Assembly: GCF_000003815.2 (NCBI RefSeq)
Contig: NC_049993.1
Location: forward strand, 2,405,434-2,469,433
Source of the DNA: Branchiostoma floridae
Lineage: Eukaryota > Chordata > Leptocardii > Amphioxiformes > Branchiostomatidae
DNA length: 64,000 bases
Direction: 5' to 3'
The first letter of the stretch is position 1. Every line of letters starts with the position of its first letter. This document shows positions 1-59,840 of the stretch, in pieces. The notes beneath the pieces were generated by a model. It worked only from the letters and a program-made list of their open reading frames with translations. It was not told the origin of the DNA and ran no database searches. A program made the position numbers and the translations under genes.

Positions 1-624
1 GAGGGCCTGTTATCATCGAACGAGCGCTCTTGAACCCATTCCTTAATTCGCTCATTAAGTGTCGTTAGCACCAAACGGTTCGAATGTACAGTTCCCCAGA
101 CGGGTAGCAGAAGCGAACATAGGAGCAAACTACTACTACCCCGATGGTACCCAGGCTACCACTGAGGCTACCAGGTAATGACATCAAGCTAGAGGAACAA
201 ATCCAAGTACTACTCATTAACATAAACCAAGCAGATGTAGTGTAGCCTGACCTTCCTCCCCTGGTCTGGTTGTAACAGTTGGCACCATGTCCAGCCAGGA
301 CCTCCCTCTCCAGATGGTAGAACAAGATATGGCCCTGGCTCGTCTGGAAATGGGAAATTTAATACAGTTACTTAAGCAATTCAATATAGTTACCAAAGCT
401 CTTGGGTCAACATCTTGCAAAGGTGATGGTCACCTGTTATGTCAATCATTCCACAAATGTGGTCAAACTGAATAGATAAATAAAGCTGGCATTGAAGACT
501 GTCACTCATCCTCGGCCAACTCTGCTTTTTGTCAGAAGATGAGAGTCAAGTATTATCTCCAAGCAGATCTATCGGGGGCAAAAGAGGATCAAAAGTGCTA
601 AACAGCATCAAACTGGCTGCTGAG

Positions 625-740
625 ATATGTGTGTGAGAGTGTATGTTAGTGTTAGTGTTAGTGTGTGTGTGTGTGTGTATGTGTGTGCATGTGTGTGTGA
701 CTGTGAGTGTTTGCTTACATAGGAACATGTGTGTGTGGTC
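625..740. repeat. GT-rich microsatellite
   Basis: Imperfect (GT)n with GTTA interruptions, seen directly. It creates a long open stretch on the minus strand that reads as Thr-His repeats and is not a gene. Confidence 0.9.
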
Positions 741-973
741 ATCTTTTGCGACTTATAACAGATAATTCCATGCACATTGTCAGTATTATGACTTTACACA
801 GGCAATTAGTGGATCATTTTTACTTGCTTTTGACCACATACTTGGCAATTATTTATTCAGAAGTCAATAAGTTTAACTAATAAGAACTGATTCTGGAATT
901 TGTGACTCCTTGGTGCAATTGACAGCAGTTTGCAGTTACCCATTGCAATCAATTGGCATCTCATATCTCACTA

Positions 974-5150: not shown

Positions 5151-5509
5151 TAGGGCTTCAATTTGAATTTCATTGAAAAACTTTTTTCTGCATACCTGCA
5201 CTGTTGCAGGCAACATTGAAAATTACCTGCACCAGACAAATTTTACCTGCACCACTCTGAGTTTAGGAAGTATGGACCATACTAAAATTGTTCAGGAACC
5301 ATTGCAATTTTGTCTTTTATACTTTATAAGTGGTAAAATTCAATGCAGTTAATAACAATGCACATACACCTACATCATAGGACATTTATGTACTACAAAC
5401 CCGGTACATGAACCAGTGCAGGTACGGTGCGGGTAGACACCAGAAATATCTGCACAGCTCCAATTTTACCTGCACTAACTTGCATACGCAGGTAGTATTT
5501 CGCGCCCTG
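5151..5509. mobile_element. Possible MITE related to the CAGGGCTCGAAATT family
   Basis: The right end reads ATTTCGCGCCCTG and the left AGGGCTTCAATTT, imperfect inverted repeats. The interior repeats TACCTGCAC in both orientations and includes the phrase GCACAGCTCCAATTTT shared with 16143-16429. I see no target-site duplication. Confidence 0.4.
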
Positions 5510-6360
5510 ATATGGATGATATCCAAAAAGACCCCCCAAAGTGATGCAAGCATGCTTATAGAAAAAGATTTGACTCAAAAAAAAAGTTGCCTTCGTGATA
5601 TAATCTGTGGTCAGGAAGGTTAAACAAAGAATGACTGTAGTACAGGCAGTTGTATACTGTACAACTTACAAGAGACCCTTTATTTTTGTTCTTTTGTAGT
5701 CTCACATCTCTATCAGCTTGGAATGTTCTAATATAATCAAATCAACATGGCTTTACTGTTAACAAATCAAGAATAACACTACCACAAACACAATCCCTAA
5801 TTCAAGACAGCTGAATCTGTTTTAAGAAATGTGATATTTGTCAGCATCTGATTTTACATATCATATGAATGTAGGTCAGATTGATTATGGGGTAGAGGAA
5901 AATAACTATACTCTCTATCTCTTTAACATAAAACAGGTGTGATTAGTAGAGTACACACATTTGAAAGTTTTCAAAATCATTTCAAATTCAAAAGGTGCTG
6001 TAAGTTGTTGACAAAGTCAAGTTGTACACTATATTTGAGGCTATTGATGAATAGGAAAAGGACCCCAAAATAGTCAAATAGACCAAGGTGGTGTTGCAGT
6101 TCTAGGAAGGATGCAAATCTTAACAATAGATCTAGATGCTTACAGCAAACTCAAACAAAAGATTTCACTCTAAACCGCAGCGAACTTTTTTGTTTTGTCC
6201 TTTGCCAACCTATGCCAAACACTACATGTATGTACTATAATACATTTTACAGTATGTGCTGGAGGTGCATGCTATGAATCAAAATTGCAAATGATAAAAA
6301 CACACATAGAGCAGTAAATACATGATTATTATGAAGTGCTACGTATCCAGAGGGTAGATA

Positions 6361-8297
6361 CTGTAAATGCAGAAATGTTCGCGGCGGATTAATGTTCGCG
6401 GTTTTCGCAGTGACCACTTCACCGCGAACATGTTTCTATTATGGTATTACACTGCAGTCTATGGTGTTACCGCGAACCAGCGTTCCCGCCAGGCATACGT
6501 CTTTACGTCTTTGGACGCATTTTTTTCTGGAAAGACGCACTCAGCTCGGCTGAATGCGTCCATAAAAAATCTGTAAGAAAGGCTGACCTGTACCACCAGT
6601 GTACAAAATGTATCTGGAATCTTTTAAAAAATCTGTCTTTATAAGAAGGAATCCTACCTTTACAATTTATACTTCAAATTGTTCACTTTCCGGTCATCCC
6701 ATGGGGCGGAGCGCGGCACGTTTTACAACTAGCGGACCCATGTGCGACACACCCAGCCACGCGCCAGTCTGAGCTGTCCGTTGCGCAATATAATTATTTG
6801 TAGTCCGTGAAATAACGTTACATCTGACAGCCAGCATTCTGTAACACTGGAAGAAATCTTATGCAGATTTTATATTCTGATTTTAACATGATACTTACTT
6901 GTCCTCATTTTCATGTATTTGTTAAAGATTTGTGGTTAATACTAGTATTGAACAAACAAACTGTTCTGCGCGAGTGTTGCACATCTCAACAAAAGTTCTC
7001 ACGCTGTGGGCAGTTGATTGGCAGTCGGTTTCTTTGACAACAGGCCGCCGGCGCCAAGCAGTCTAGATTGGCCACCAGGTCCAAATCCAATCATCTTAAT
7101 AACCAATCGGCGTTTGCTAAATGTAATGATGTACTCTGTCATTGGTCACCGGAGAAAATACAAAAGTTACCGAGTATTAGCGCACGTGACGTTGTTTTGT
7201 GATATTGGTAGGCGCCCGTGTCGTCTGGCAAGTTTCTTCCCTAGCTGCTAACAATTTGCTATTAAAGTTTCCCCATTTATCCAAGTTAAAAAAGCGGTGC
7301 GCGGTAAATAAGTGAAGAATCTAAAACTATACACTTTATTTCTTATTTCCAAAATTTCTTTTGTTTCAAAAAGACAAAATTTGTGGCAGAAAAGGGGCCG
7401 CAATATTGTTGTCAAGCGTCGATCGAGTCGGCTGTGCACTGGCGTTGGCCTCCGTGGCACATGGCGCGGCACACCCCCCTCCCAAGACGGACCGTCGATC
7501 GCAGCGCCCAGCACGTTGGAACGTCTTTCTGGCTACTAGTTCAAGGCTACCCCGGCACTGATCACTGCCAAAGAGGCAACAGATCGTCCTCCTTCGAGTA
7601 ATGTATAACGTTCTTGGTCTATTTACAAATAAATCCAGCCAAAGATTTCACGCCGAAAACGGGGTTACATGAGGTCGCAGGAAACAAACGCACGCTCGTG
7701 GAAAATGACGGCACGGCCTTGTAAAACCCCACCGATTCGTGAGTGTGATGTCGTCGTTATTTTATCGTCTCGGAAAACTATTTGATGAGGAAGGGCGCAA
7801 CATCGATCGCACGAGGTCGACATTTTTTTATTCAATGACGGAAGAAATTGGCAGAATTTTTCCATGGGCTGACGAACTGGCTAGAGCCCTGTTGCGAAGC
7901 ATAAAAAATCCAAAAATTTTCGTGTCTGGAGAAATTATACCCGGGCCAGATCACTGACGGCTGATTCCCCGTGCTGTAGTATATTACGGGAGTAAAAGAG
8001 GCAACCGACATCCAATCTCAAGTGCATGATTTTCCTCTCAAATTGCGGGAAATTGTGTTCTAGAGGGTTTGAAAATCCAAATTTTCCTGGGGGAGCATGC
8101 CCCCGGACCCCCCTAGAACGCGAGCGCCTGCGGCGCTCGTCTCGCGCCTCCGGCGCTCAATACCCCCCTCAGAAATATTTGGACGCATACTGTCAAGAAC
8201 CTGGCGGGAACGCTGCCGCGAACTTAAATCCACCGCGGAAAGTCCTTTTACACGCTACCGCGAAATGAAATCCCCGCGAACTTAAATGCATTTACAG
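6361..8297. mobile_element. TA-flanked MITE (copy 2), split by a nested transposon
   Basis: Outer ends CTGTAAATGCAGAAATGTTC and its right-end partner ending ATGCATTTACAG are flanked by TA, as in the copy at 974-1181. Removing the nested element and one copy of its 8-bp duplication leaves about 191 bp, the same size class as copy 1. Confidence 0.75.
6478..8215. mobile_element. hAT-like non-autonomous transposon nested in a MITE
   Basis: 1,738 bp with perfect 16-bp terminal inverted repeats (CAGCGTTCCCGCCAGG / CCTGGCGGGAACGCTG) and a perfect 8-bp target-site duplication CCGCGAAC at 6470-6477 and 8216-8223. The 8-bp duplication and CAG start are typical of hAT elements. No transposase reading frame is present. 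The right subterminal region carries a GC-rich foldback around 8085-8160. Confidence 0.88.
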
Positions 8298-29120: not shown

Positions 29121-30501
29121 GTAGAGTTCCAAGACCTCATACATTTACGAAATGATTGTAACTCTAAGGCTTACAACTGATATATTGTTTCCATCAATCA
29201 TGCAAATAAGGTCCACAGTTACATTAATTAAATTAGTTGATCATCACTGACCCAAACTGAAGGAGACAATAACGTTGTCTCAAGAAAAAAGGTCACACTC
29301 CCATTTCTATCAATTATGAAAATAATGTCTAATTGGCATGATTTATGTCAAACATAGTTCACTTTCATGTAACTTCACAAATATATTGCTTACTTTGCAT
29401 GTATCGTGCTTCAATCTTTGTTTCATGTAACACTTTAATGTCAGGCAGTCCCTGTGAAACTGGTCCCTTGTTAGCAATGTCCCCCATGTAAGGCGAGACC
29501 AATGCCGTCATAGGGAAACAGCCGGTATGCCTGGAGAGAGAGTAAGCTCTGTCGCTTACTTCCGCACCTACAATGCTTCGCTCTCCTTTTGTCTTGTGTA
29601 AGGCAGTCCCTGTGAAACTGGCCCCTTGTTAGCAATGTCCCCCATGTAAGGCGAGACCAATGCCGTCATAGGGAAACAGCCGGTATGCCTGGAGAGAGAG
29701 TAAGCTCTGTCGCTTACTTCTGCACCTACCATGCTTCGCTCTCCTTTTGTCTTGTGTAAGGCAGTCCCTGTGAAACTGGTCCCTTGTTAGCAATGTCCCC
29801 CATGTAAGGCGAGACCAATGCCGTCATAGGGAAACAGCCGGTATGCCTGGAGAGAGAGTAAGCTCTGTCGCTTACTTCTGCACCTACCATGCTTCGCTCT
29901 CCTTTTGTCTTGTGTAAGGCAGTCCCTGTGAAACTGGCCCCTTGTTAGCAATGTCCCCCATGTAAGGCGAGACCAATGCCGTCATAGGGAAACAGCCGGT
30001 ATGCCTGGAGAGAGAGTAAGCTCTGTCGCTTACTTCTGCACCTACCATGCTTCGCTCTCCTTTTGTCTTGTGTAAGGCAGTCCCTGTGAAACTGGTCCCT
30101 TGTTAGCAATGTCCCCCATGTAAGGCGAGACCAATGCCGTCATAGAGAAACAGCCGGTATGCCTGGAGAGAGAGTAAGCTCTGTCGCTTACTTCTGCACC
30201 TACAATGCTTCGCTCTCCTTTTGTCTTGTGTAAGGCAGTCCCTGGGAAACTGGCCCCTTGTTAGCAATTTTTACAGCACAATTCACATTGTATGCAAATG
30301 TCCATAATTGCAAAGTTAATGACAGAATGTAAACATGGAATTTTGACAGGACTACCGGTTAACAAAAACTTTGTGTCTTTGTGTTAAAAAGACCACGATG
30401 AATAATATAGATCTTTCTGATTGTGACCTTATTTGCATAATCAATGAGACAAAACAATAAATCTACAAATATTTTAAAGAGGTATGAGGTCTCGGAACTC
30501 T
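29121..30501. mobile_element. Element with inverted arms around a minisatellite
   Basis: The left flank (AGAGTTCCAAGACCTCATAC, 29121 on) and right flank (GTATGAGGTCTCGGAACTCT, to 30501) are inverted copies. Homology extends inward through CATGCAAATAAGGTC-like sequence on both sides. The same GAGACCTCATA family recurs at 57362 and 58545. The interior is filled by the 158-bp tandem array. No coding capacity. Confidence 0.55.
29443..30270. repeat. 158-bp minisatellite, about 5.2 units
   Basis: Units start with AGGCAGTCCCTG at 29443, 29601, 29759, 29917, 30075 and 30233, exactly 158 bp apart. The sequence after GAAACTGG alternates TCCC, CCCC, TCCC, CCCC, TCCC, CCCC through the array, indicating a 316-bp dimeric higher-order unit. 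Other unit differences are single bases. Confidence 0.95.
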
Positions 30502-31022
30502 TGATGCAATAGATTTACGACATATTGTCCAATTAAAGAGATTATGTTTGCCAATGCTGGAGGCTAATGTTTAAGGAGTTTCTTTTTTTTTCAAATTCAA
30601 ACAAGAACAAGTGACCGTAGGTCACATACTAGATATGACATATTTATGGATTCCCTCGCATCGGTCGCTATAATATATATTATGCCGATGATATTGACAG
30701 TCCCAGACAGACAAATAATGACGAACAGGAAGGAAAACAAGTCCTAATATTACTGATATCTTACCAGAACAAGTATTGTTTATTATAACACTGGCAGTGA
30801 CCTATGCAATGCGCTAGCAAGCCAGAGTCTAACATCTGTTTAGGGACGTCTACCGCGGCAGCTCTTCAGTGCATTAGACAACACATAACCCTCCATATCT
30901 GCTTGGAGATAAGCAAATTACCAAACCCCGAAGCCACATGGCCTGTTCCACAATACTCAGGGAATATAGGAGTAATTTCTGAAACTATGACATTGATCAT
31001 AAAACAACAGCTACCGCAACAA

Positions 31023-32015
31023 GCCCAAGATAATAAAATGTTTTTCATCTTACAGTATTTTTTGCTCCAATTTACTTCTACTTCAGAGGCACAACATGCA
31101 GATGAGAAAACAATCCCTAAACATTTTGCTGTGGTGCACCATTTTAGCCCACTAGCTTGTTCAGAGCAGTGTCTCCAAGGGCCTAGCCACATGGCTACTG
31201 TTTTTTTCTTTATTCAAAACTAGACCAGAAAAAACGGAAAAATGTCTAATAATATCTAAACTTCTATCAATAGAAATTTTGTCACCAAGTATCAGTTCAG
31301 TATCATCTGCATATTGAAAAATTCGAGATTCAACATCGGAGTCGCCAAGCCCAGATAATGTAATACCTTTGATTTCGGAAGACTGGCGGATTTTAAGAGC
31401 AAAAAGCTCCGTGGCTAGAATAAACAGAAGAGAAGACAAGGGACATCCTTGACGTACACCTCTTCCCAGGTCAAACCATTCAGAGATATGACCACAATGA
31501 TTGATACAACTACGGGCATTATTACTAAGTGTCATAATACCTTTACCCACTGAACAAAATCTGAACCGAAATTGAACTTTTCAAGAACTTTTATAATGAG
31601 GTCTTTGGAAATAGTATCAAAGGCTTTGCTGTAATCTAAGAAGAGAATGGCACCTGGAACATTAGAATCTCTAGTAAAGCAAATTATGTCATCTATGGCT
31701 CGTATGTTATTCAAAATACTACGTCCCTTGATATATCCAACTTGGTCTGGTCCAACAATGTGAGAAATAATGTTCTGTAATCTATTTCTTTGCACCTATT
31801 TTGTAATCAGTATTTGTAATTGAGATAGGTCGCCAGTTAGACAGCTGGTCTGTACTTAAATCTTGGTGTTCACCCCCTTTAAAGAGTAAGGATATAACCC
31901 CTTTACGTTGAGTGGAAGAAAGCTGGTTCTTCGTGTAGCCCTCATTTAGTGAGTTCAAAACCATAGATCCTATTCTGCTCCAAAAGACTTTATAAAAGTC
32001 AGTAGTCTTGGGCTT
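31023..32015 (-). pseudogene. LINE reverse transcriptase fragment, inverted
   Basis: The minus strand reads, with frame changes near 31200, 31540 and 31790, from KPKTTDFYKVFW through NWRPISITNTDYKI, QVGYIKGRSI, LFLDYSKAFDTI, RQGCPLSSLLF and YADDTELILG to MWLGPWRH, GLKW and KMKNILLSWA. These are successive blocks of an L1-type reverse transcriptase, including the catalytic YADD. It is truncated at both ends and broken by frameshifts, so not functional. Confidence 0.9.
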
Positions 32016-32993
32016 CACGCAACCTTAGTCTTATAGGAAAAATAACAGTGCTCAAAAACCTTGTAGCTTCACAACTGTCTTACAGTTTTGGTGCACTTAT
32101 ACCACCGGATAGCTTCTTAAAGGATGTTAATTTGATGTTTTACAGATTTATCTGGAAAAGAGATAGAGTAAAGCGTAATGTGATGGTTCAAGACTATTCA
32201 AAGGGAGGATTGAAAATGATAGATATAAGAATAATGCACAAATGTTGTTTATTACGATCGATAAAGAAATTGTTATCCGGTAGTGAAACTCCTACTCCTA
32301 CATGCAAGAAGATACAACTGTATTATTTTAAGAAGTTAGGACCTGATCTTTGTATATTGAGACATAACTGCTCGGCAGTCCATGTGTCATCTAAAGATTC
32401 ACTGTTGCCCTTACCTCTCTATTACCGTAAACTCATACTTACTTGGTATGAAATGAAACCTGTACAGAATGTCAATGATATTGAGGTAAATCAAGTAAAT
32501 TGGCAATTGTTATGGAACAATGCTTGTATAAGTTACAAGGGCAACATGCTTTATTTTAAGAAATGGATTAGACGACATATTCTTTATGTAAATGATATTG
32601 TGGATAATCAGGGTAACTTTATATCTTTTGATGATGTAAAAGCTATTGTTGGTAATGATGCACATGTATTACTACAGTATCATGCTTTAATCAATTCAAT
32701 TCCCAAACAATGGAAAGGTGTTTCTCGATTAGACAACGAAGAATCTCCTAGTATCAAACTTTGTGGTAAAGACATCCGCTTACTAGACTCTATCTTCTTT
32801 AAGAATTTCTGTATCATGCAATACCAAGCAGTCCCAGTCTCACAGAATTTCTGGGAGAAACGATTTCCTATGTACGATTTTCGTTCCATTTCTTGGCATG
32901 TACTATGGAAATCTCCCTTCTTGACCACTAAAGAACCCAAACTTATTAGTTTGCAATGGAAGATCTTGCATAATATTTATCCGACCAAAATAT
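32016..32993 (+). pseudogene. LINE ORF2 C-terminal region, forward part 1
   Basis: An open frame begins RNLSLIGKI and continues LVASQLSYSFGALIPP, typical of the post-RT region of L1/Tx1-type ORF2 proteins. It runs 318 codons from the first ATG and breaks at HNIYPTKI, where the transposon at 32994-34736 is inserted. Coding resumes after it at 34743. Confidence 0.88.
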
Positions 32994-34736
32994 CAGGGTT
33001 CTAGCTAGCGCAAAGTTGCGTAGCGGCCCACTACGTTAAAATTTTGGACCGCTACGCTCATTTTGGGGCCGCTACGCTTATTTTCAATACAAAGTAGCGG
33101 CATTTTGACTGTATTTATTTGTGCAATAATGCCAGATCAAATGTAAAAAAACGTTGGTTTCAGTTGTTTCAGAGGGAATCGCAATGAGCAAAACACAAAT
33201 ACATGTGTGGGCGCTGCCTGGCGTGACTTATCAGGTCCCATGTGCACAGAGCGCACGGCCGAGGCGGGTCTTCATGTTGCCCTCCCATATTGGCAAGCCC
33301 AGAGCCATATTTGGGCTAGACTGGCTTATTACGACTTGCCGAGGGAGTGTCCTTGTATGACAATCTTTTTCGTGGAACTTGAACAACTACAACTACAAAT
33401 ACGTTTCCTCCTCGTCCTCAACGCTTTTTCCTCGTAACTTGCGCGCCTACCCTCACTAAACTGCATTAATAATTTTTAAGGATAGAAAAAATAATAATCA
33501 GACACTTGTCCCTCATACACTTGGCACGTCCCGATCAGGCCGTGGGAGGCTGTTGAAAAAGTTCGTCACAGTAGCAGATACTTTTGGTCATTTTATCAAA
33601 GTAAAAACTAAACTAACAATATATAATGTGAAATATTTTTAAAAAGTTGGAGCACTGTTACCATCAGATATGCTTTATGAGCATTTGTTTTTGTCATTTA
33701 ATCATCAGATATTGTCAGTTCAGTTTTGTTTTGGAAATTCCAAATGCCGTTTGTCCTCCCCAAAAGTAAACCTGACTAGACAACACCCCAAAAAGGGCGG
33801 AGTCTGCACTGCCAGCAGGCTGGTGCCGGAGACTGTCCAGTGCAGTGGGCGGAGTCAAGTCTCTTTAGCCTCTAAAAAGTTTTGCCGCCAGCACGGCCCC
33901 AGTGCAGTGGGAGGAGCATTGTGCATACAAGCCGTGGGAATGAATTTCCCAAGAGGGACCCGCCTCATAGATGAATAATTAAACCATATTTGGTGTGTCT
34001 CAAAGGAACGTGTTTCTTTCTATCTTCTGGTAGTGCCTGCAGAGGAATCAGCAATACGATATGACATGTAGGGGGAGGTGTAAAATGTAAAGTGTGTTCT
34101 GTGTTCTTTCTCTCACTAAATTTCTGGAATTGATTTACAAGAGAGGTAGAGTGGCTTACATTGATAAACATGTTAAGATTTTGGCAGTGTGATGTAGCCA
34201 TTCTTTTTTCAAGTATTGTAAACATTGTTCCCACTGCCATGAAATTGAATACAGTATTCTGAACATTGTATGGAAATGGAGGAACATTGAGGAAGTCTAA
34301 GCAAATTTGGAAATGTATGTAGAAATGATTACAGACTTTTGAAATTAATTCTTACCTTTGATTTGACTCTCTAGTAACTTTTAGTAAAATGATGTTACTT
34401 ACCTGTTTCTAGGTTTACCTGTTAATTTTTTGTTTCTATGTATGAGTTAAGATATCTTGTGACAAGGTCCTTTGTAAGGGTAACACAGTGACAAGATGCA
34501 AAAGTATAAGAATTACCCATCAAGAATACATATTGAGAAAACAACAATTTTCCTTTTATAGGTCCCTAAGAATGGCCCATTTCAATTTTATATTTCCAAA
34601 AGCTCCATACCGTGGAAGGGGGGAAAGCCCCACTTCCACACCATCCCCCCCTCGGTCGCTTCGCGCCCTCGAGCTTGGTCGCTTCGCTCCCTCGCCTTGA
34701 CCACTACGCTCAAATTTCATCCGAGCTAGAACCCTG
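32994..34736. mobile_element. CAGGGTTCT-family DNA transposon nested in the LINE
   Basis: 1,743 bp with perfect 13-bp inverted ends CAGGGTTCTAGCT / AGCTAGAACCCTG and a 6-bp duplication AAATAT (32988-32993 and 34737-34742). The left subterminal region repeats GTAGCGG/CCGCTACGCT; the right carries GGTCGCTTCGC repeats. No transposase. Shares its terminal nine bases and duplication size with 13683-14071. Confidence 0.9.
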
Positions 34737-34742
34737 AAATAT

Positions 34743-35086
34743 TGTTGCATAAGATGAGAATTGTAGAAAATAATAAGTGTATTTTTTGCGATATTATAGA
34801 ATATATAGAGCATTTTTTCTTTGATTGTAAAATTGTTAAACCATTATGGGATTATGTGGAAAGTTTGTTTAGTTATTCCATATCTCTCACTGTACATGAC
34901 ATTATTTTTGGATACAACCCTCATATGTTAAACAAGTTTCGGTACATCAATGAACTGCTGCTAGTTGCGAAACTATCCATTGTAAAATATAAGTCTACAG
35001 TGTCATCCCCGAATTCACTATGTCAAGATGCAGAAATCATCCTGAAAATTTTCAAATCAGAATGTATTCTTAGAAATATGATATAA
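34743..35086 (+). pseudogene. LINE ORF2 C-terminal region, forward part 2 (zf-RVT)
   Basis: The frame continues as LLHKMRI and then CIFCD, EHFFFDC and PLW, the cysteine/histidine cluster of the zf-RVT domain at the end of L1-type ORF2. It stops at 35086, about 65 nt before the poly(A) tail. Confidence 0.88.
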
Positions 35087-35180
35087 GCTACATATTGTAC
35101 AGCTTTCTGTGATATGTAATAAAGTGCCGTGACGAACACGGAATCAGGAAGAAAAAAAAAAAAAACAGCTACCGCAACAA

Positions 35181-44249: not shown

Positions 44250-46323
44250 TTCAGTTCAGACTGGGAAGGAGTTGTGAAAAGCAACTTGGCATAAAGGTGG
44301 CCCAAAATGTAGTAAAAAATGTGTCTCGACTTCAAGATATAAGTGGTCACAGAACTTACATGTTCTATCACTTAAAGGAGTACGGTTATACCTGTCGGAT
44401 TCTATATGTAACAGATGGTCACTTATGCGAAATTCACACACACTAAGAGTTTCCTTACATCAGATAACCAGCAGGGTGTTTTATGACTATCTAGTTCCTG
44501 TTGTATCATATAAGCTTCATATTGAAGACTACCTGTGTGCACTTCGTTGGCTAATCTAAAATGATAATTATGCATTCTGCATTGAGCTTCAATCCTTGTT
44601 TTCGCAAGGTTGAATGTTACTTTCCATTTTGGGCAACATCGGCTAACAGCGTTAATTGCGTTCTGCAGTCCTTCTTGTGTTTCAGAAAACAAAACAATGT
44701 CGTCAGCATAAAATAAGCTGTTCAATTTGGAGCGTTGTAACAGAGGAGTGTCTAAGTTTTCTGAATCAAGTTCATTTATGAGATCGCTGATGTAAAAGTT
44801 GAATAAGGTGGGAATTAAAACGCATCCTTGTCGGACACCAATTTCAATAGGAAAACTGTCGCTAAGGCCTTCCCTAGTTTTGACGCTAGCTTCGGACCGG
44901 AACGGTTATACAAGTCTTTGATTATATCAAAAACTTTGCCTGATATCCCCCTGGAAAGAAGTTTATACAATAGTGACCCTCATACCAGATTGAATCAAAA
45001 GCTTTTGATAAATCAATGAAACAAGCGAAAAGACGTTCTCCAGACTGTGAGTAATTGGTTATAAGAGTTTTCAATATGAAAATGTTATCAGATGTTCTGT
45101 AGTTTTTGCGAAATCCTGTTTGGTTTGGTTTGGTGATGCCATTCTCTTAATTCTTCCTTTTAACCCTATTCAGACCGGGGGGGGGCTTTTGAGGCCCGCG
45201 CTAACTTCGATGTCCTATAACGCCAGAACGGCTTACGCTAGAGCCACCAAATTTGGTGAGTTTTCCTAAAATATTGTTGGCAACAATTTTACAAAGTCTG
45301 ACAAATTTTCCATTTTTTCTTGTTGCCATGGCAACCGTTTGTTGACAGGCAGTTTTGCCAAAAATCACTATTTTTGATTCTAACTATGTATTTTTCACAT
45401 TTATTTGCTATATTACTGCAATTTTGTTACATAAATAAAATCTTATATTATTCAGCATATCTTTCATAATTATATATGCATAAATTATGCTAATTTGATG
45501 ACGTCATCAGCCCAAAATCCAAGATGGCGGACCGAATGGCCAGATCAAGAATAACAAGCTAATTATCCCTTAAAATTTGTAACTACCTGGTATTTTTTCA
45601 TCAAAAACCATCTAAATGAATGAATTTAGTCTATTTCCATTGCCCTTTGTGATTATTTGTTGCAAAAAAAGTATTTTTAAAAATTCAAGGTGATGGATAT
45701 AATATGGCGGAGCCCAACTCGTATCTTAGACGTACATGACGTCATTTTATGACGTCATATTGACGTCATTGATGTTGCTATTGGCAACGCAAGTCGTAAT
45801 AAACATTATTATTCTGTTATCTGCACTTGTTGTTACATTTTTGCAGCATAACTTGAAGTTTTCTGAGAATACCCATTTTTCATGGGTTTGGCCAATGTAA
45901 TCAAATTGATGACGTCATAATTACGTCATCTTACGTTAACGTAACGTCAAATGTCACATACTTGTTAGATATTATGTCGAAATCATGTCCTGAAAATTTG
46001 GTGGCCCTACGGCACGTCGTTTTAGAGTTATAGGACTTAGAAGTGGAGGGCCTCAAAAGCCCCCCCCCCCGGTCCAGGGATGACCAAAAAAGCCCGGTCT
46101 GAATAGGGTTAAACAGCTTAAAATTTGTTGGGGTCGTCTTTCCGACCTGCTTTGAAGATGGGGACAATTTAACTTTAAATTTGGACCACGTTTTTGGAAA
46201 TGTCCCCTTAGTGAAGTGTACTAGTTTCAGTAGAGGGGCCAGTAGAATTCTCTTTCCTGCTTTAAGCATTTCGAATTCATTGATGACCATGTCATCTCCA
46301 CTGGCTTTTAGTTTTCGAACCAT
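44250..46323 (-). pseudogene. Relic LINE reverse transcriptase, interrupted
   Basis: On the minus strand, separate blocks read in order: GDDMVINEF, LLAPLLKLV, NQTGFRKNYRTSDNIF, a KAFD block near 44990, FYADDIVLFSET with LQNAINAV, and near 44300 a zf-RVT-like CKFCDHLYLEVETHFLLH. Frameshifts and stops separate the blocks, and a TTAA-flanked element lies in the middle. The order and YADD identify a non-LTR retrotransposon; I do not assign a clade. Confidence 0.8.
45164..46108. mobile_element. piggyBac-like non-autonomous element in the relic LINE
   Basis: 945 bp bounded by CCCTATTCAGACCGGG and the inverted partner ending CGGTCTGAATAGGG, each next to TTAA (45160-45163 and 46109-46112). TTAA duplication with CCC ends is the piggyBac pattern. 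The subterminal C/G runs flank GCTTTTGAGGCCC and its inverse. The interior carries a cluster of TGACGTCA palindromes. No transposase. Confidence 0.82.
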
Positions 46324-46329
46324 TTAGAA

Positions 46330-48300
46330 GAAAAAATGAACCATTGAGCGTTCAGAAATTGGCATTCAACCTATAGAGACACTCATAATCTCACAAGTAA
46401 AACTAAGCTTCCTACATAGTTATAATGGTTGTGTACATGTGATATGATTGTATGCCTTTAAAATGTTAGTCTAATTGCCCTTCCATGTTAAGTTTTTAAT
46501 GTATGTGTATATGCTTTTAATGCCTAAATACGCAATTCAGCTCCTTAGGGCGCTGCGATGTATTTAGAGGTTGTTGAAACAATCAATAAACGTTATATAT
46601 ATAAGTGGGTCAGATCTAGAGGGAATAAAATTCTGACAAGTTTCCAGCAGGGGTGTGGCTTTTGGAAATTAACTTAGTTGCTACTAAAAATTGATATGTT
46701 TCAATATCAAGAGGGTATATGCCTTTACCTTTGTGCCAAATTTCAACTTATTCAATGACATATTCGGCAACGTTTAAAACTTAGATAGTTCGGGAAATAC
46801 CATTTCTGTGGGAAGGTGCGGCAGGACTCGTATCTACACCGAATGGGAATACGTACAGACACACATCGAGTATTCATAATGATTGGAATACTGTAGAAGT
46901 ATCTCTTTGTCTTAGCAATCATTCATTCTAAAGAAAATTCTCTTTTTTTCGGACTAGAAATCTGAAATCAAAGTTGCAACACTGTACGCTTTTGTACTAA
47001 TTTTGTACGCATTTTCTGCTCTATTGCTACCATTGTTTGGTGGCTTCTATCTGGGACGTTAGAAAACAACATAACATGCAAACTAGTATTGGGCAATATG
47101 AAAAAAAAAACGACCGGAGAATTCAATTTTTCATTTTCATTATTGCAAAATTGTACAGTTTGTGCTATTGTCACAACATTTGTACGGTAAATATCGGCAA
47201 GCCCCTCGTAAACTCACAGGCAAGACTCAATTGATTTAGGACAAGATAAGAGTAATCCACCGGCAGATAAAGCAGTAAACCCCAAACACAAAGTAAACCT
47301 AATTAGTTATCTAATATTTGTTATAAACGCCCCCAGAGTGCTATACTCTAACACAAATAGACTTACGCTATTGGTAATTTGATTTAACGTAACCTAAGTA
47401 CTGAGCAATTTTATATGTCCACTTGAGTAAGATGTATTTAATTTAATGAAATCAAATCTGTTGTAACACAGTTATGTAATTGCAAATGGAAGCTACGGGT
47501 AGTGACAGTATATGAAAATAAAAAGAACATTTGCTACAATTTTTTTAAGTATTAATTTAAAACAAGAAATTAGACAATAGTGAGGATTAAATTAGGGCAG
47601 AAAGTCCTTTGTTAATGACAGGTAGGTTAACAATCTGCACGGCGAGTTAGCATCATGTGGAACTAAACAGTTTGGCTAAACGACAATATGTTGAGTTCAA
47701 GTTCAAATAATGTTTTATTTAGTTTTTTTTATGAACTGTGAAGTTTGATACATGATAAGTATATTGTTTACTTAGATCCCATCTGTGTTACTGTGTACTG
47801 CCTAGTTGATTTAGGTAGCCGTTACCCTACCAATACACATTTTTCGACTAATCTGACTTGACACTGCTGTCCAAGTCATTTGCTTCAGGACAGTAGGATC
47901 TTAAATTAGGTAAGAACATTTCAAGACATGTATACTTCACTTCGTTGTTTGTCCTCAGGTGTTGAAGAAAGAAATAATAGTGTTGAATCACCATATCACG
48001 AAGTACCAAAGGACACCCTATTATACAATCTTTTGTTAAGATATTTGTTGTGTAAATAGTAACATGCTTATCTCATTCATGTGTCAATTTGATATTTGAT
48101 AATGGCTATATGCCAATAACGATAATGACCTGTTTTTTTGGTGTATGGCATGGTCGGTTCTAGTAAAATACCTCATAAACTACCTCAAGTGCTTCGAGAA
48201 TTCAGTAGTTTATTTGGTGGTTATCGGAATGAACCATGTCTTATGACACTATATTACACCTCAGGGTGGGTCAATCCCTAGCACATTTGCATACTTCCAG
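46330..48300. other. Intergenic DNA, nothing recognised
   Basis: AT-rich with no coding-like frame. A plus-strand TTTATT near 48207 is an AATAAA on the minus strand, the nearest I noticed downstream of UGT once the inserted LINE is crossed. Confidence 0.5.
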
Positions 48301-48375
48301 ATTTTTTTTCCTGGATACCTGGATACCTGGATACCATCTTCAGTCAAGAAAGGCCTCTGCCTGTAGTGGACTGCT

Positions 48376-49995
48376 CTAGACGCATCCCTCATGGACGTAC
48401 CACAGGTGTTCCCAGTGTCGATCCAAGTTGGATTTAAACTGGTTCACTGACTCGCTCATGACTATCCTTTCTGGTAAAGAGTTCCAGTCCTTTACGACCC
48501 TCGAACTGAAGACATGCCCCCTGATTCTAGTTTTTGCAAGTGGGATCTTCAACTTGTAACTATGGCCTCTAGTTGAAGAACCCTTAGCTTCCACGAAAAA
48601 CAGATCTGACTGTAGTCTCTCTTTCCCAGCCATAATCTTAAAAACTTGAATCATATCTCCTCTCCTACGCCGGTACTCCAGGGATGGTAGCCTCAGCTTT
48701 TTTAACCTGTCCTTGTAAGGAATGTCCTTGAGAGCAGGCACCATTCTGGTTGCTCTGCGCTGAACTCTCTCTAGCCTCTGTTTGTCCAAGGAGAAGTGTG
48801 GCCCCCAAATAATATTACCGTATTCTAGATGGGGTCTCACCATCGTTTTGAAAAGAATCGGGATTGTTTGTTCATCAATGTTGTAAAAGGCTCTATTTAT
48901 GAGTCCCAGCATCATGTTACCCTTGTTCGCTGCTTTTGCAGTGTGCATGTGGAATGCGAGATTGTTGTCTATAGATACACCTAAGTCCTTCTCTTCCACG
49001 GTTTCCTCTATATTCTGTCCACCAAGAGTGTATGTTATTTTCTGATTTGTCCTCCCCAGGTGTAGAACCTTGCACTTGCTCACGTTGAAACGTAGCTGCC
49101 AGTGCTGTGACCACTGATCTACCGCTACTAGATCCTGTTGCAATGCCTCCTGATCTCTTTTGTGTTTGACTGGTCGAAAAATCTTGCTGTCATCAGCGAA
49201 GATTTTTACTTCACTAGATATTGCCTCTGGTAGATCATTGATATATATCACAAACAATATGGGTCCAAGGACACTTCCCTGTGGAATCCCGCTTTTGACC
49301 TCTTTCCAAGATGAGAATTCACCATTAACTACCACCCGTTGTTTCCTCTGGGACAAGAAGTTTCCAATCCAGTTTCGTAAGTCACCCACCACCCCATATC
49401 TCTCCAGTTTCTGTAGTAACCGTGTATGAGGTACTGTATCAAATGCTTTACGAAAATCCAGATAGATGACATCTACTGGATCTCCTGCCTGTAGTAGTTT
49501 TGTCCACTGTTCCATGGTCACTAACAATTGAGTCATACATGAACGTCCAGGAACAAACCCGTGTTGGGCGTCAGTGAAATAGTTGTGAGAAGACATGTGT
49601 TCTACAACTTTGTCCCTAATGATGGATTCTAGCATTTTTCCTACTACGGATGTGAGACTTACAGGTCTGTAGTTCCCCGGAGATGATTTACTGCCCTTCT
49701 TGTGAATGGGTGTAACATGCGCCTGTTTCCACCCTTCAGGTAACTCAGAAGATGCAATGGATTTCTTAAAAAGAATTGTGAGAGGCGTAGCAAGGTCATG
49801 AGCCAGTTCCTTGAGAAACCGTGGATGCAAGTTATCGGAGCCTGCAGATTTTGCTGGGTTAAGCTCGGCCAATTTCTTGAGGACTACTTCCTCAGTGATC
49901 TCTAAACCTTCCAATAACTGGGTGTCATGTAGGTTGTTTATGGTAGGAATGTTTGACAGGTCCTCTTCCGTGAATACACTTGCGAAAAAGTCATA
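48376..49995 (-). pseudogene. LINE reverse transcriptase, intact frame but 5' separated
   Basis: An uninterrupted reading frame of about 540 codons begins at FFASVFTEEDL and contains all reverse transcriptase blocks: NPAKSAGSDNLHP, GNYRPVSLTSV, QHGFVPGRSC, YLDFRKAFDTVPH, SGIPQGSVLGPILF, FADDSKIF and LGVSIDNNL. It ends with the C-terminal CR1-type region, WNSLPERIV and a stop at 48376. The frame is undamaged, so the insertion is young, but lacking its own N terminus and promoter it cannot be autonomous. Confidence 0.93.
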
Positions 49996-50772
49996 AAGGA
50001 AATTGACTGGGAAAGGAAAATTTCCACGATAGGAACAAATCACCATGGCCAATTACTCCTAGACTGCTTGGACAATAACTTCCTATACCAACATGTAAAC
50101 GAACCTACACGTTTCCGGCTAAGCCAGAAACCATCCTTGTTGGACTTGATCCTTTCCAATGAGCAAGACTTAGTTGGGGATATACAGTACACACCCGGCC
50201 TGGGTAAGGGAGATCATTGCTGTTTGAATTTCTGCATCCAAGCAGATGTGAGGAGTGAGGACCAGACAACAGGTAGAAGGAACTACAACAAGGGTCAATA
50301 TGCTAAGGCTAAAGATGCTCTACATGATATAGACTGGGAAGAAGAAATGGGTCACCTGGATATTCATGAGGCTTGGGAAGTGTTTGCTGGAAAAATGGAT
50401 GCAATAATTGAGGATTGCATACCTTTTTCTAAGCCCACCCTCAGAACAGACAGGCTTTACATGAACAAACGTGCCATGAAGGCAAGGGTTAAGAAGAGAA
50501 AAACATGGGCCAAGTTTAGGAGAACAGGAAAAACAAGGGACTATGTAGCATACACAAAGGAAAGAAACAAACTTCGCAGTTTAACAAGGGAACTTTGTAG
50601 AACTTTTGAGCTGAGGATGGTTAAGGACATCAAGGAGAACCCTAAGGCCTTTTGGCGTTATGTCTCGACAAGACTTCACACCAGGGAGAAAGTAGGAAGT
50701 TTGGTAAAGGAGGGAGGTCAGGTAGCAGAAACTGATGGGGAAAAGGCAGAGGTTCTGAATGACTTTTTCGCA
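49996..50772 (+). pseudogene. LINE endonuclease C terminus and linker, inverted
   Basis: The plus strand reads KEIDWERKI, HHGQLLLDCL and SLLDLILSN, the end of an apurinic-type endonuclease domain. A linker rich in Lys/Arg follows, then ENPKAFWRYV and VLNDFFA. VLNDFFA is the residue block that begins the oppositely oriented reverse transcriptase piece, showing both come from one reading frame. Confidence 0.9.
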
Positions 50773-50779
50773 TGACTTT

Positions 50780-51062
50780 TTACTGGGACTTGAGCTTGCC
50801 GCCACTTTTACGGCAAATCTTCCTGCAAATGAACAGACAGCTGCACCACACTGTCCCTAAGACAGCCAAACAGACAGCAAACAGGAACACAGCCACGTCC
50901 AGCAGGTAGTACTGGTACCACGGCAGCTCCACGGCGCGTGCGCGGAGATGAGGCAGTCCGCCATGTTTGATGACGTGTTCTATCCACCAGACGGCCCGCT
51001 CCATGGGTGACTGCGGCTGGTCACGGTGCAGACGGGACAGGCGGGCTGCCGTCTCACGGTAG
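50780..51062 (-). CDS. UGT: UDP-glucuronosyltransferase, coding exon 4 (C terminus)
   Basis: Residues 434-527 after acceptor TTCTTCACAG. It has HRDQPQSP, ERAVWWIEHVIKHGG and HLRARA, all conserved at the end of UGT domains. A membrane-spanning segment (about residues 487-510) and a basic tail follow. The last five residues KLKSQ fit a KxKxx dilysine ER-retention signal, placing the enzyme in the ER with its catalytic face luminal. The TAA stop is followed after 7 nt by an inserted LINE, so the native 3' untranslated region is displaced. Confidence 0.95.
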
Positions 51063-51173
51063 CTGTGAAGAATGATATGAAAAGGAGCAAAATATTAATT
51101 TTAAAGTATGGGCTCACGTACCTATACTATAAATTTGTCCTATAAACATGAAAGTGATATCTACATCTATACC

Positions 51174-51174
51174 T

Positions 51175-51250
<76 letters not shown>

Positions 51251-51345
51251 GGCGAGAGAGGTGGAGAAAGAATGTGTGTGTTTGTGTGTGTGTGTGTGTA
51301 TGTGTGTATATGTGTGGGTTTGTGTGTGTGTGTGTGTGTGTGTGC
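51174..51345. repeat. Compound microsatellite in UGT intron 3
   Basis: (GA)n at 51174-51197, then (GACA)n at 51196-51251, then (GT)n at 51273-51345. Confidence 0.95.
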
Positions 51346-51460
51346 TGTAGTCAAGTTTGAACTCTTCAGGCTACGTAATTAAAAGAAGTATACGGTAAAT
51401 TAGATACCAAACATCATTTGACGAACATCATGACCTGTATCTGTGAAGCGATAGTAGTAC

Positions 51461-51680
51461 CTTGTGTTGGTCACAACATGAAGAACTGCCTGGTACAGCT
51501 GGTCGGCGGTGACCGTGCTAAAGTCCAACGTCACCCCCAGTCCCCTGGCCACCACGCGGGCAGCGTTGGCGGGCTGGTCCCCGAACAGCGGCAGACAGAC
51601 CATGGGCACGCCGTGGTGCAGGGCCTCGTACATACCGTGCGACCCAGCGTGAGTAATGAAGGCTCTGGTCTTTGGGTGGC
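51461..51680 (-). CDS. UGT: UDP-glucuronosyltransferase, coding exon 3
   Basis: Residues 361-434, bounded by acceptor ATTTTTTAAG and donor GTACTA. It holds the heart of the UGT signature: HPKTRAFITHAG, GMYEALHHGVPMV and LPLFGDQPANA. Asp395 and Gln396 (FGDQ) correspond to the pair that contacts the sugar of UDP-glucuronate in the family. Phases match: G|GC from exon 2, and AG|C into exon 4. Confidence 0.95.
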
Positions 51681-52103
51681 CTTAAAAAATATAGAATTTA
51701 ACTGTAAGTCAAAAGCTTTTTGCAAATCATCTAGAAACGTTGTACTGTATATAAATCAAAAACCATCCTGCAACTTTTACAGATACAGATACGGAATGTA
51801 ATGAATACTCTGTAAACATATTTTGACAAAAAAACAGAAATATTGTTCTTGCAATTGGTTTTTCAATTTGTAGATATGTGTATATGACTGGCCCGGGTCC
51901 AAATTTGTTCCCGTATGCTGTATTGGGTCCAGGTCCACAATACTTCAGCAGGACATGAATGTTGCTGTTGATAAAATCAGTAAGAGTGCAGCATGTTATT
52001 ATGTGAGAATTTGACATGATTGCTCGATATTTTGTCAACAAGCTATATCACTGCTGCCTTCCATTTTCACATTCATTTTCTGACTTTTTCTATGACTTCT
52101 TAC

Positions 52104-52323
52104 CCAGTAGGTCATTCTGAGGAAGCCAGCCCATCAGCTTGGTGTTGTTACCCAGACCAATCGGCTTCTCACCCACGTAACGCCACACCACTTTCTGTCG
52201 GAGTCGGGCGAAGGCTGCCGCGAAGACTTCTCTCCTCTCCGCCGACATCGTCTCCACAAATGACCCAAAACTGACGACAATCACTCCATCGTCTCCTGAG
52301 CTCTTGACAAACGCTTCTACATC
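52104..52323 (-). CDS. UGT: UDP-glucuronosyltransferase, coding exon 2
   Basis: Residues 288-361, acceptor TTTCCACAG, donor GTAAGA. It covers the linker and start of the nucleotide-sugar-binding domain: VSFGSFVETM, KVVWRYVGEKP and WLPQNDLLG, all at the usual UGT spacing. Exon 1 joins after a complete Glu codon. Confidence 0.95.
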
Positions 52324-52723
52324 CTGTGGAAAGGTGAATCAACCATAATGAATTATATTTTGTTAATCGACACCCAACTATGTGAACGTCTGAAGAAAGC
52401 TTGCTATTTGATTGCCAACAGTTCCAATTCGCGACTCTATAAAAGCGGACATCCCATTAAAGTTGCTGTAAGTTGGTGACCATGCTTCGCCGATAGGCAA
52501 TTTGACAGCTCTAAAGCAATCAACGAATTATATAGAAGATAAACGAATCTTTTTACACTTGTGTGTTTTGTTGTATCTTATTTTGAAAAAAAAGCGACAT
52601 TTTGTTTTTTAACCATCTTGTTTTTTTTTCGCCCTGTCTTATCATTTTTGCGGCCTGCCGGGGCTTTTATCCATAAAATTTACTTGCTGTGGTCTCATCA
52701 GAAATGGCTGCAGGATACCTATA

Positions 52724-53085
52724 CAGAGTCCTCCCGAAATTATGGAACAACGGTACGGTGGCCCTCCACTATACTTCTAGCCCAGCTCCACTATACTACT
52801 TTTGAAATCTAGTATGTTTCTTCCTTATTGTTTAGGTCAGTTTTTCTAAAATTAATGAAAAGTCACAGATTTGTCCAGTGGGTATTGTCTGCAAAAAACT
52901 TGTAAATGGGTGATGATCAGAACAATAGTCGATTCGCCACTTCATAACAAAGGAATCACTCACTTGTAGTATTTGATACCGTCTGTCATTGCAAAATGAA
53001 CCCATTTTCATGAAAGCGCAGCACGTTGGTTCGGGTTATTTTTGCTAGCCCCTCCACTGTACTAAAAATTCTGAAGAGAACCCTG
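52724..53085. mobile_element. CAGGGTTCT-family MITE in UGT intron 1
   Basis: 362 bp, reversed copy of the element at 13683-14071. Ends are CAGAGTCCTCCC and GAAGAGAACCCTG, with CTATA on both sides (52719-52723 and 53086-53090). Its right edge lies 15 bp from exon 1, next to the donor site. Confidence 0.85.
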
Positions 53086-53100
53086 CTATATTAAACTCAC

Positions 53101-53961
53101 CTCAGCAAGGGGGTTGTTCGCTCCGACATTCAGTCCTCCGACCTGAACCATGTTGGGCATGCTGGGACGAGGAAAATCCAAGACATTGTCGGTTCGACAA
53201 AGCCACAAGACTGCGCGTGACGTCACACTCTGGATAGTTTCTTTCTCGCCAATGTACTTTCGGACCAGTTCGTCATAGTAGCTACTCACACCCAGTCGTG
53301 CCAATACAGGTACAAGTGTAGACAAGACAACGTTCTGAAGCCGCTGTACGAAGGTCATGTCATCGGTAAAATCAGTCAATATTGACGGTACATACGAAAG
53401 AGGGAGTGGCACACCGGTTGCTTTTTCGTCCAGAAAGTGGAGATCTAAACGCATAAAGGCGATGTTAGGGATATCAAGTTGAGCTGAGAGGATAGCACCA
53501 CAAGGAAAAAAGGTTTCAGAGATAACAACACTGTACTGGGAAGCCCTCAGCCGATCCATCAGGCTGCTATCTCCGAGCAGATGGGCACAGTATTCCTTGA
53601 ACCCTTCCATCGCAGCTGGCATCCATTCTATCAGGTTACTGAGATTAAGTTTTTCAGCCGTAGACATAATCTCGTTTTCTTCTTTTTTGAGCCTTACTTG
53701 GGTCCCATGGTCTTGAATTGCCTCAAACTGAAGATCAGGCCACTCTGACCGCCGTTTTCCCACAAAGTCCTCTGAAACAACCGCAGTGACGATATGGCCT
53801 TTATCCACCAAAGCACAACCCATTTTGGCCATAGACATCCAGGGGCTTTCAGCGCATGGCGGAGGTACCAAGAGAACTTTTTCTGCGCTGCTCCTGTGAC
53901 TGATCAGAAAACCCAGGAAAACCAGCAGAATTGCGGAATATCGAAGCGTCGAAGCACCCAT
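53101..53961 (-). CDS. UGT: UDP-glucuronosyltransferase, coding exon 1 (acceptor-substrate domain)
   Basis: UGTs transfer glucuronic acid from UDP-glucuronate to small lipophilic substrates in the ER lumen. The four exons give 527 residues, the normal length (about 530), with no frame breaks. Exon 1 codes for residues 1-287: a signal peptide (1 to about 26, a hydrophobic LLVFLGFL core), then the variable substrate-binding half. The start is ATG at 53961; an in-frame TTG upstream is ignored. The catalytic His of the family (SHWL.M) is Pro40 here (ESPWMSM), and the partner Asp aligns with Glu149 (VVISETFFPCG). PCGAILSAQLDIPNIAF is otherwise conserved. Donor GTGAGT follows Glu287. Vertebrate UGT1/2 orthology is not one-to-one, so no specific symbol is given. 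Confidence 0.95.
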
Positions 53962-54000
53962 TTTGCTGCGCTCAGTTTTCTTTCCCAACTTTGTGCATTG

Positions 54001-54010
54001 CCTATTTATG
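54001..54010 (-). promoter_or_regulatory. TATA-like box upstream of UGT
   Basis: CATAAATAGG on the minus strand, about 40 nt upstream of the start codon, would give a short 5' leader. Motif match only. Confidence 0.4.
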
Positions 54011-54019
54011 TGGGGTCAA

Positions 54020-54890: not shown

Positions 54891-54990
54891 NNNNNNNNNN
54901 NNNNNNNNNNNNNNNNNNNNNNNNNNNNNNNNNNNNNNNNNNNNNNNNNNNNNNNNNNNNNNNNNNNNNNNNNNNNNNNNNNNNNNNNNN
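54891..54990. other. Assembly gap (100 N)
   Basis: Exactly 100 N, a conventional gap of unknown size. Confidence 0.99.
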
Positions 54991-58544: not shown

Positions 58545-59108
58545 AGACCTCATATCTCCATAAAATAGTCTGATTGTGTGAATGATTTCCACATTTACAT
58601 AATCTATCCTTGGTTATGTACACATTTAGATAACGTACACTGGTCACAATGTTGATTGTGCAATCATTTACCATTTAGACGAATTATAGCACTTTTAATT
58701 AATTATGCAAATTAGGGACGTAATTGCATAATTGTTATCAGTTAATGTTCCACCAGCCACAAACTACATAAATGACAGGTAGTTGAGTCCCACAATGGCA
58801 AACACTACAAATATAGATTCCCCTCATTCATTATGCAATTTAAGTGCTAGTTTGCATAATTGCATCTCTGTCTAAGCTACCTACATACCAAATATCATCT
58901 AAATTTGTCATTCCCTTGTCCAATTATCCTCCTTAGAAGATTTTGAAAAACGCCCCCTGCAGTTCCAGAGCAACCTGTTAGGGGACCCAAACATACACCT
59001 ATTCCTTGCGTCACGATCACAACCTATCTGCCACCAAAAAAATCGAGACCATAGCATATCCAGGTCAAAAGATAACAAAAATTTTTTTGCTGCAGTACCA
59101 AGGTCACA
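58545..59108 (+). repeat. GAGACCTCATA-family repeat, copy B
   Basis: Direct copy of 57362-58140, diverged, including GACCATAGCATATCCAGG and TTGCTGCAGTACCAAGGTCA. It ends exactly where the 72-bp minisatellite begins. Confidence 0.7.
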
Positions 59109-59840
59109 GGGTCAGGCAAGAGAGGGGCCATCCATTTCACAAGGGGTTAAGGGTGTGGGGAGAAGAGACCATTTCATTCAGGGTCAGGCAAGAGAGGGGC
59201 CATCCATTTCACAAGGGGTTAAGGGTGTGTGGAGAAGAGACCATTTCATTCAGGGTCAGGCAAGAGAGGGGCCATCCATTTCACCAGGGGTTAAGAGTGT
59301 GGGGAGAAGAGACCATTTCATTCAGGGTCAGGCAAGNNNNNNNNNNNNNNNNNNNNNNNNNNNNNNNNNNNNNNNNNNNNNNNNNNNNNNNNNNNNNNNN
59401 NNNNNNNNNNNNNNNNNNNNNNNNNNNNNNNNNNNNNNNNNNNNNNNNNNNNNNNNNNNNNNNNNNNNNNNNNNNNNNNNNNNNNNNNNNNNNNNNNNNN
59501 NNNNNNNNNNNNNNNNNNNNNNAAGAGACCATTTCATTCAGGGTCAGGCAAGAGAGGGGCCATCCATTTCACAAGGGGTTAAGGGTGTGGGGAGAAGAGA
59601 CCATTTCATTCAGGGTCGGGCAAAGGAAGGACCATTTGTTTCACAAGGGTCAAAGGGTGTGGGGGAGAAGGGGCCATACATTTCACAAGGGGTTGAGGGT
59701 GTGTGGGTTCGATACTATTTAACTCAAGGTCAGGCGAGTGGTGCACCCTTCGTTTCACAGAGGGTAAAGGGTGTGAGGGGGACGTCCATTTTGCATCTGG
59801 TTGAGGGTGTGGGACTGGAGAACCAATCCATTTCGTTTCA
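59109..59840 (+). repeat. 72-bp minisatellite
   Basis: Units begin GGGTCAGGCAAGAG at 59109, 59181, 59253, 59325 and 59541, then degrade. Each unit is built of two related halves of about 36 bp (GGCCATCCATTTCACAAGG and GACCATTTCATTCAGGG). As 72 is divisible by three and the unit lacks stops, open frames cross the array in several phases, a composition effect rather than a gene. Confidence 0.93.
59337..59522. other. Assembly gap (186 N) inside the minisatellite
   Basis: Unit starts on either side (59325 and 59541) are 216 bp apart, exactly three units, so the gap length preserves repeat register. Confidence 0.97.

Follow-up and report, generated by a model that had tools for sequence, protein, structure and literature searches.

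How did the two halves of one LINE reading frame come to lie head to head, directly behind the stop codon of a detoxification gene encoding a UDP-glucuronosyltransferase (UGT)? The arrangement is found in a stretch of Branchiostoma floridae DNA of 64,000 nucleotides (contig NC_049993.1, 2,405,434-2,469,433), referred to here as the window, in which the 3' part of a CR1-lineage LINE occupies 48310-49994 on the minus strand and the adjoining 5' part of its ORF2, in flipped orientation, lies at 49992-50772 on the plus strand. On the evidence of sequence comparison, we consider the most probable course to be target-primed reverse transcription of the RNA of such an element at the UGT 3' UTR, with twin priming, and put the probability of this reading at about 0.9. 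The features of the insert and its surroundings are as follows, with element positions in the coordinates of L042, the longest copy of the family.

48302-48309, minus: A8 run in the 3' flank (AAAAAAAATCTGG in element sense), a candidate AAAAA target-site duplication, the 5-mer being present also in the 5' flank
48310-48335, minus: LINE tail (GTATCCAG)n of about three units, detected with TRF
48310-49994, minus: 3' segment with ORF2 residues about 428-967 (reverse transcriptase and C-terminal region; PF00078 and tblastn range), a short 3' UTR and the tail
49981-49994, minus: first copy of the 14 nt ATGACTTTTTCGCA, the putative cDNA overlap, repeated in the flipped segment
49992-49994: inversion junction, where x (L042 6105) and z (L042 about 5338) meet with 3 nt of microhomology (ATG/CAT)
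49992-50772, plus: flipped 5' segment with ORF2 residues about 174-437 (endonuclease end and linker; open frame and tblastn range)
50759-50772, plus: second copy of ATGACTTTTTCGCA, by sequence match, at the outer edge (y, L042 6118)
50773-50781, plus: flank TGACTTTTT, in element sense AAAAAGTCA, an exact match to the element at the breakpoint; either native target sequence or an AAAAA overhang followed by templated nucleotides
50780-50782, minus: UGT stop codon TAA, the last exon matching PF00201 at 7.2e-29
50783-54015, minus: UGT exons upstream of the insertion, with PF00201 in the two coding stretches tested

Much of this had been read from the letters alone in a preliminary description, and its account of two head-to-head halves of one frame, of 14 bases common to both, of a microsatellite-type tail and of an insert lying 7 nt past the UGT stop codon (50773-50779) holds good. 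The minus strand is open for 558 codons (48376-50052), in which a profile search finds RVT_1 (PF00078) at 4e-35, and the plus strand for 272 codons (49957-50775) that carry the end of the endonuclease domain. The plus half had been described as the endonuclease part of the element, which must be narrowed: the end of an APE-type endonuclease is indeed present, but only that end, and its match to PF14529, from profile position 42 to 113 of 117, has an E-value of 1.7e-4, under the curated cutoff. An Rfam search over 47000-52500 gave no match. Elsewhere in the window, 44426-44905 on the minus strand is a fragment of another reverse transcriptase (RVT_1, 6.5e-17).

Whether the halves are natively inverted can be judged from related copies in the host assembly, which was scanned over 513.4 Mb in 431 contigs. 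A DNA search with the 3' half returned the window copy and five more that are 99.6-100% identical; the 24-nt 3' end is found unchanged at these six places and, with two bases different, at six more. The six copies comprise one long example (L042, on contig C158), four that are plainly 5'-truncated and the inverted one in the window. In L042 a 402-codon frame with a PHD finger (4.7e-6) precedes a 967-codon ORF2 in direct order, in which a profile search places the endonuclease (PF14529, 2.2e-14; PF03372, 1.6e-6) before the reverse transcriptase (PF00078, 1.2e-34). L043, truncated at position 5356, is direct, as is the diverged relative L017, with 69-71% identity over long pieces; the truncation points of L044, L045 and L046 are 6180, 7229 and 7678. 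A native inverted order is thus rejected by a test fixed beforehand, in keeping with the preference for twin priming in the preliminary description. Among 63 genome loci compared, some of them overlapping and not all LINEs, no other head-to-head copy with pieces of at least 150 nt was seen. One candidate for a second inversion, L032, was discarded since its opposite-strand ORF2 matches overlap in the query range and have 29% identity, as in a neighbouring element. A protein survey restricted to the best 47 of 5,713 candidates omitted even the flipped half in the window and is therefore silent on the frequency of inversion.

The family probably belongs to the CR1 lineage. It has an APE-type endonuclease followed by a reverse transcriptase, an ORF1 of the type known there, short target duplications and a repeat tail: all six copies close with (GTATCCAG)n, short tandem repeats rather than poly(A), and a 3' end of this kind is typical of CR1. 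The assignment is drawn from the domains, the tail and a resemblance to CR1 reverse transcriptase sequence. PHD-bearing ORF1 types are reported, in the available part of PMC4120745, from lineages or subgroups of both CR1 and L2, so that the finger does not fix the clade. The protein matches of the reverse transcriptase included the contaminant-like loci L001-L003 and PDB structures of reverse transcriptases such as those of L1 and R2, with no named CR1 reference among them. A genome contig collection yielded three contaminant-like LINE fragments, and in a viral contig collection no relative was confirmed. One of the loci, L001 (JADGDE010000021.1), is filed under a Thiotrichales MAG and holds several animal-type LINE ORF2 pieces, the best with 38-41% identity to the window reverse transcriptase; these are most likely eukaryotic contamination.

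When the window copy is aligned with L042, the 3' segment corresponds to 6105-7784 (99.7% identity) and the flipped segment, in opposite orientation, to 5338-6118 (99.4%), which gives x = 6105 for the start of the former, y = 6118 for the end of the latter and z of about 5338 for the 5' truncation. The outer end of the flipped half is thus an internal point of the element (VLNDFFA) and its inner end the 5' truncation (KEIDW), just as the preliminary description had it. To this can be added that the halves meet at a 3-nt microhomology: the inner junction reads CCTTT-ATG-ACTTTTT, and ATG fits both segments. The marks of twin priming are two halves derived from one direct-order element, with a 14-nt overlap at one internal point, and the two ends of the flipped half as just described. 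In element sense the outer junction reads CCCAGT-AAAAAGTCAT-GCG-AAAAAGTCAT-TCAG, where GCG, like the second AAAAAGTCAT, belongs to the element and the first AAAAAGTCAT is flank or partly copied. The GCG of the element sits 3' of UUUUU, so that it would not arise if a single-copy junction were duplicated in tandem at a later time.

Under twin priming, the bottom-strand end (CCAGATTTTTTTT) would prime at the tail and the first cDNA would be copied as far as x = 6105; this is the presumed source of the 3' segment. The top-strand end would prime the same RNA at most 14 nt from the stop of the first cDNA and would be copied upstream to z, yielding the flipped 5' segment, and the two cDNAs would join at ATG. 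An RNA hairpin as the cause of the stop at 6105 was considered and received no support, no unusual fold being found in the one 141-nt stretch analysed (z-score 0.33).

The borders of the insert can be checked against paralogs of the gene. The last UGT exon matches 39 other places, and 17 3' ends of 211 nt were compared. In four of these (L068, L074, L076 and L079) both flanks are uninterrupted, the stop codon being followed after about 14 nt by the counterpart of the window 3' flank, and a query with L068 found the full 150-nt similarity at just those four places among 10 matches. Such paralogous empty sites confirm the borders but do not decide between readings of the outer junction. A second copy of the 3' flank, as expected of an empty allele, did not emerge from a genome search that may miss matches and that gave 38 others, short dispersed repeats. 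Of these 38, 34 lie on, or extend, one dispersed repeat at 48209-48273, just downstream of the insertion. The 3' half of the insert is in the sense of the UGT gene, the minus strand within the insert has no AATAAA or ATTAAA, and the next such signal downstream is at 48209-48214; the UGT transcript probably gains, as judged from the DNA, about 2.46 kb of 3' UTR. The AATAAA at the end of the dispersed repeat may end that transcript.

At the outer junction, microhomology with the UGT flank had been claimed. The match itself stands: a flank-terminal word of at least 9 nt that matches the template no more than 25 nt from the breakpoint was met in 184 of 200,000 random window flanks, and the match is displaced by 13 nt from the border of element and flank. 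Its meaning is ambiguous, however, since the word may be partly copied from element RNA. Tentatively, we favour the view that the CR1-lineage reverse transcriptase primed the second cDNA with an AAAAA overhang of about 5 nt. This short top-strand overhang would pair with UUUUU at 6110-6114, be extended by GTCAT up to the stop base of the first cDNA, abort there, slip back 13 nt and be copied again, which would produce AAAAAGTCAT-GCG-AAAAAGTCAT; the site before insertion would have read TAAAAAAAATCTGG. Were this so, LINEs with short overhangs could twin-prime with the aid of slippage, the second priming taking place where the first reverse transcriptase stalled. Such a process would be helped by primer slippage like that to which LINEs may owe their repeat tails.

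Several observations are consistent with the AAAAA overhang. Three of the four truncated siblings share end words of 5-6 nt (GTCATG, AAGTC and GAGTC), a raw count in which outer letters may be element or tail, while L045 has no clear target duplication; since the target duplications of the siblings are short, a short overhang is what would be predicted. Target duplications of 3-5 bp are likewise reported for L2 and CR1 elements in the accessible text of PMC4245944. AAAAA is common to both flanks of the insert, which happens by chance in 6,149 of 200,000 random 14-nt flanks, although the alignments with the paralogs score in favour of AAAGTCAT as native sequence. T5 runs number seven in the 4.2 kb of the element. 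The end of the first cDNA and the possible aborted second extension (AAAAA plus GTCAT) stop at one and the same template base, L042 6105. On the other side, the overhang leaves 6 nt between the stop codon and TCTGG, against 14 in the four paralogs that share the UTR, and its summed alignment score with them, calculated for six A, is 343.

Almost as probable as this is a form of twin priming that differs at the outer junction only. Here AAAAAGTCA(T) would be native UGT 3' UTR, a 9-10-nt match of the target would have captured the RNA, and copying would have begun 13 nt nearer the 3' end on a match of 1 nt, with no target duplication; if so, the empty site would read TAAAAAGTCAT before TCTGG. 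Besides a flank match beyond chance, it has in its favour the spacer length and the alignment with the same four paralogs, the summed scores for AAAGTCAT followed by A8, A5, A3 and A0 being 363, 375, 371 and 339, and the UTRs of paralogs L070 and L077 open with AAGTTAT-like sequence. Yet 27.5% of 400 random 5-mers put in place of GTCAT, with the spacer A5, also reach 375, and GTCAT ranks 105th of 1,024 5-mers against 16 of the 17 UTR starts (L082, with no stop recognised, was dropped) and 403rd of 1,024 against the four UTR-sharing paralogs. A single copy of the word would be expected had a 10-nt pairing primed. Furthermore, a 10-nt match lies outside the 2-5 bp given for about 70% of inverted L1 insertions in the part of PMC2912911 available. 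The remaining weight falls to other readings of the outer junction.

A second 5'-inverted LINE, at 31006-35180, bears on whether the event at the UGT gene is of a kind that occurs in this genome.

31006-31022 and 35164-35180, plus: 17-nt target repeat AACAGCTACCGCAACAA, of whose first copy the last two letters may be element
31021-32006, minus: flipped reverse transcriptase half of an L1-like LINE, frameshifted, PF00078 pieces at 1.4e-8 and 2.3e-8; 97% to direct-order L084
32006-32015, plus, and 31021-31030, minus: 10-nt overlap TCTTGGGCTT common to both halves
32006-32993, plus: unflipped (C-terminal) part, 99.6% to L084
34737-35163, plus: poly(A)-tailed continuation beyond the inserted element of 1,743 nt, from sequence comparison

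This LINE we take to be L1-like, in view of its poly(A) tail among other features; the 17-nt target repeat is of about the length known for L1 duplications. At least 20 places carry both halves adjacent in direct order and, among the matches listed (the best 40 of 535 candidates), only the window is inverted. L084, compared along with L085, has the direct order and reads through in one frame; relative to it the flipped half is much the more divergent of the two, with 12 substitutions and 17 indel letters over 994 columns, the unflipped half having four and none over 988. Like the CR1-type insertion, it combines a 5' inversion with a small cDNA overlap (10 against 14 nt) and minimal inner microhomology, 1 nt by eye; it differs in being L1-like, with a poly(A) tail and a 17-nt target repeat, the classical form. 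With its full set of marks, this second LINE indicates that twin priming, including the classical kind, occurs in this genome, and on these sequences the process appears in two LINE types here. The overlaps of 14 and 10 nt, in both of the inverted LINEs of the window, fit a second priming at the stall point of the first reverse transcriptase. The 1,743-nt element inside the second LINE (32994-34736) has inverted ends CAGGGTTCTAGCT/AGCTAGAACCCTG, with about 5-6 nt of LINE repeated around it, and relatives of its first 507 nt are numerous in the genome; it is probably a DNA transposon. At 29439-30268, TRF finds 5.3 copies of a 158-bp unit in tandem (98% match).

Explanations other than twin priming fare much less well at the UGT gene. 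An ordinary 5'-truncated insertion might have had its 5' part inverted later by DNA breakage; if the break was staggered by 14 nt and each end was copied, a 14-nt inverted duplication at the breakpoint would likewise result. We think this improbable: one break has to fall exactly at the border of element and flank, the flank word matching the breakpoint is left unexplained, and the same pattern in the second LINE would be a second such coincidence. More improbable still is an assembly artefact joining two copies. Copies 99.6-100% identical make a repeat mix-up conceivable, but both halves have private substitutions, the 3' flank matches itself only (short dispersed repeats aside), the gaps in the window are at 54891 and 59337, and the junctions have microhomology of the kind that the mechanism would leave. 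Around the second gap, a 72-bp minisatellite (59107-59780) is split by 186 bases of assembly gap. Two independent head-to-head insertions of the same family, for which the orientation alone speaks, can be dismissed, as the plus half is without 3' end or tail, no second 3' end is found, each of the six places with the exact 3' end is a single copy, and for independent breakpoints to coincide to within 14 nt over about 4.2 kb has P of about 0.007 on a simple uniform estimate.

The insertion had been called recent, and the window copy has indeed only seven private substitutions in 2,461 positions (three of 781 in the flipped half and four of 1,680 in the unflipped, with 14 positions counted twice); of its further substitutions, one is common to L045 and two to L043. 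These counts suggest that the insertion is young. Amphioxus heterozygosity amounts to several per cent, and the CR1-type insertion is therefore probably polymorphic.

Twin priming, or 5' inversion, of human L1 was reportedly set out by Ostertag and Kazazian in 2001. The accessible portions of three papers (PMC2912911, PMC4245944, PMC2837659) describe for it the same head-to-head halves, internal outer edge, 5'-truncated inner edge and short junction microhomology as seen here. Such microhomology is frequent but not universal in inverted L1: 28 of 605 5' junctions are without it and about 70% have 2-5 bp, according to the text available of PMC2912911. The differences lie in the element, which here is of CR1 lineage with an 8-nt repeat tail and short duplications in its siblings, whereas inverted human L1 has target duplications of 10-20 bp; in the 14-nt overlap, in contrast to an internal deletion in human L1 (PMC2837659, in part); and in the partly repeated word at the outer junction, where extra nucleotides are given for 3.9% of inverted L1 (PMC2912911, same portion). 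Nothing against twin priming appears in the available parts of PMC3747384, PMC5389967 and PMC2718515. Among the titles and abstracts listed in a literature search, none describes twin priming for amphioxus or for a CR1-clade element.

Twin priming of a CR1-lineage LINE is thus well supported as a known kind of event in a less usual element, of which the clade and the short target repeat make a useful case; what could be new is the way in which the second cDNA was primed. Most documented cases of 5' inversion concern L1, that of mammals above all, and the insertion described here is a young CR1-type example. In the cell assays covered by the accessible text of PMC4245944, human L1 in human cells was the sole source of 5' inversions, one Nimb-2_DR insert excepted, and the authors suggest that 5 nt of overhang may not suffice for pairing with the RNA. 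That suggestion would be qualified if the AAAAA overhang is real, and it can be tested at this one locus, given that the family has a copy in direct order, that UGT paralogs show the empty site and that a classical L1-like inversion lies 17 kb away.

The closest systems are found among CR1 and its relatives. In the CR1 lineage of the Jockey superfamily, as far as the available part of PMC4120745 describes it, a PHD-finger ORF1, an APE-type endonuclease and a reverse transcriptase are combined as here. The zebrafish L2-clade elements ZfL2-1 and ZfL2-2 (CR1-1_DR and CR1-2_DR) are treated in the same portion of PMC4245944: ZfL2-1 makes target duplications of about 5 bp, similar to those of the present family, and ZfL2-2 has extra nucleotides at about half of its 5' junctions in zebrafish. 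ZfL2-1 is described there as giving no 5' inversion in HeLa-RC or DT40 cells, whereas the amphioxus locus holds a natural inversion of an element of the short-duplication type.
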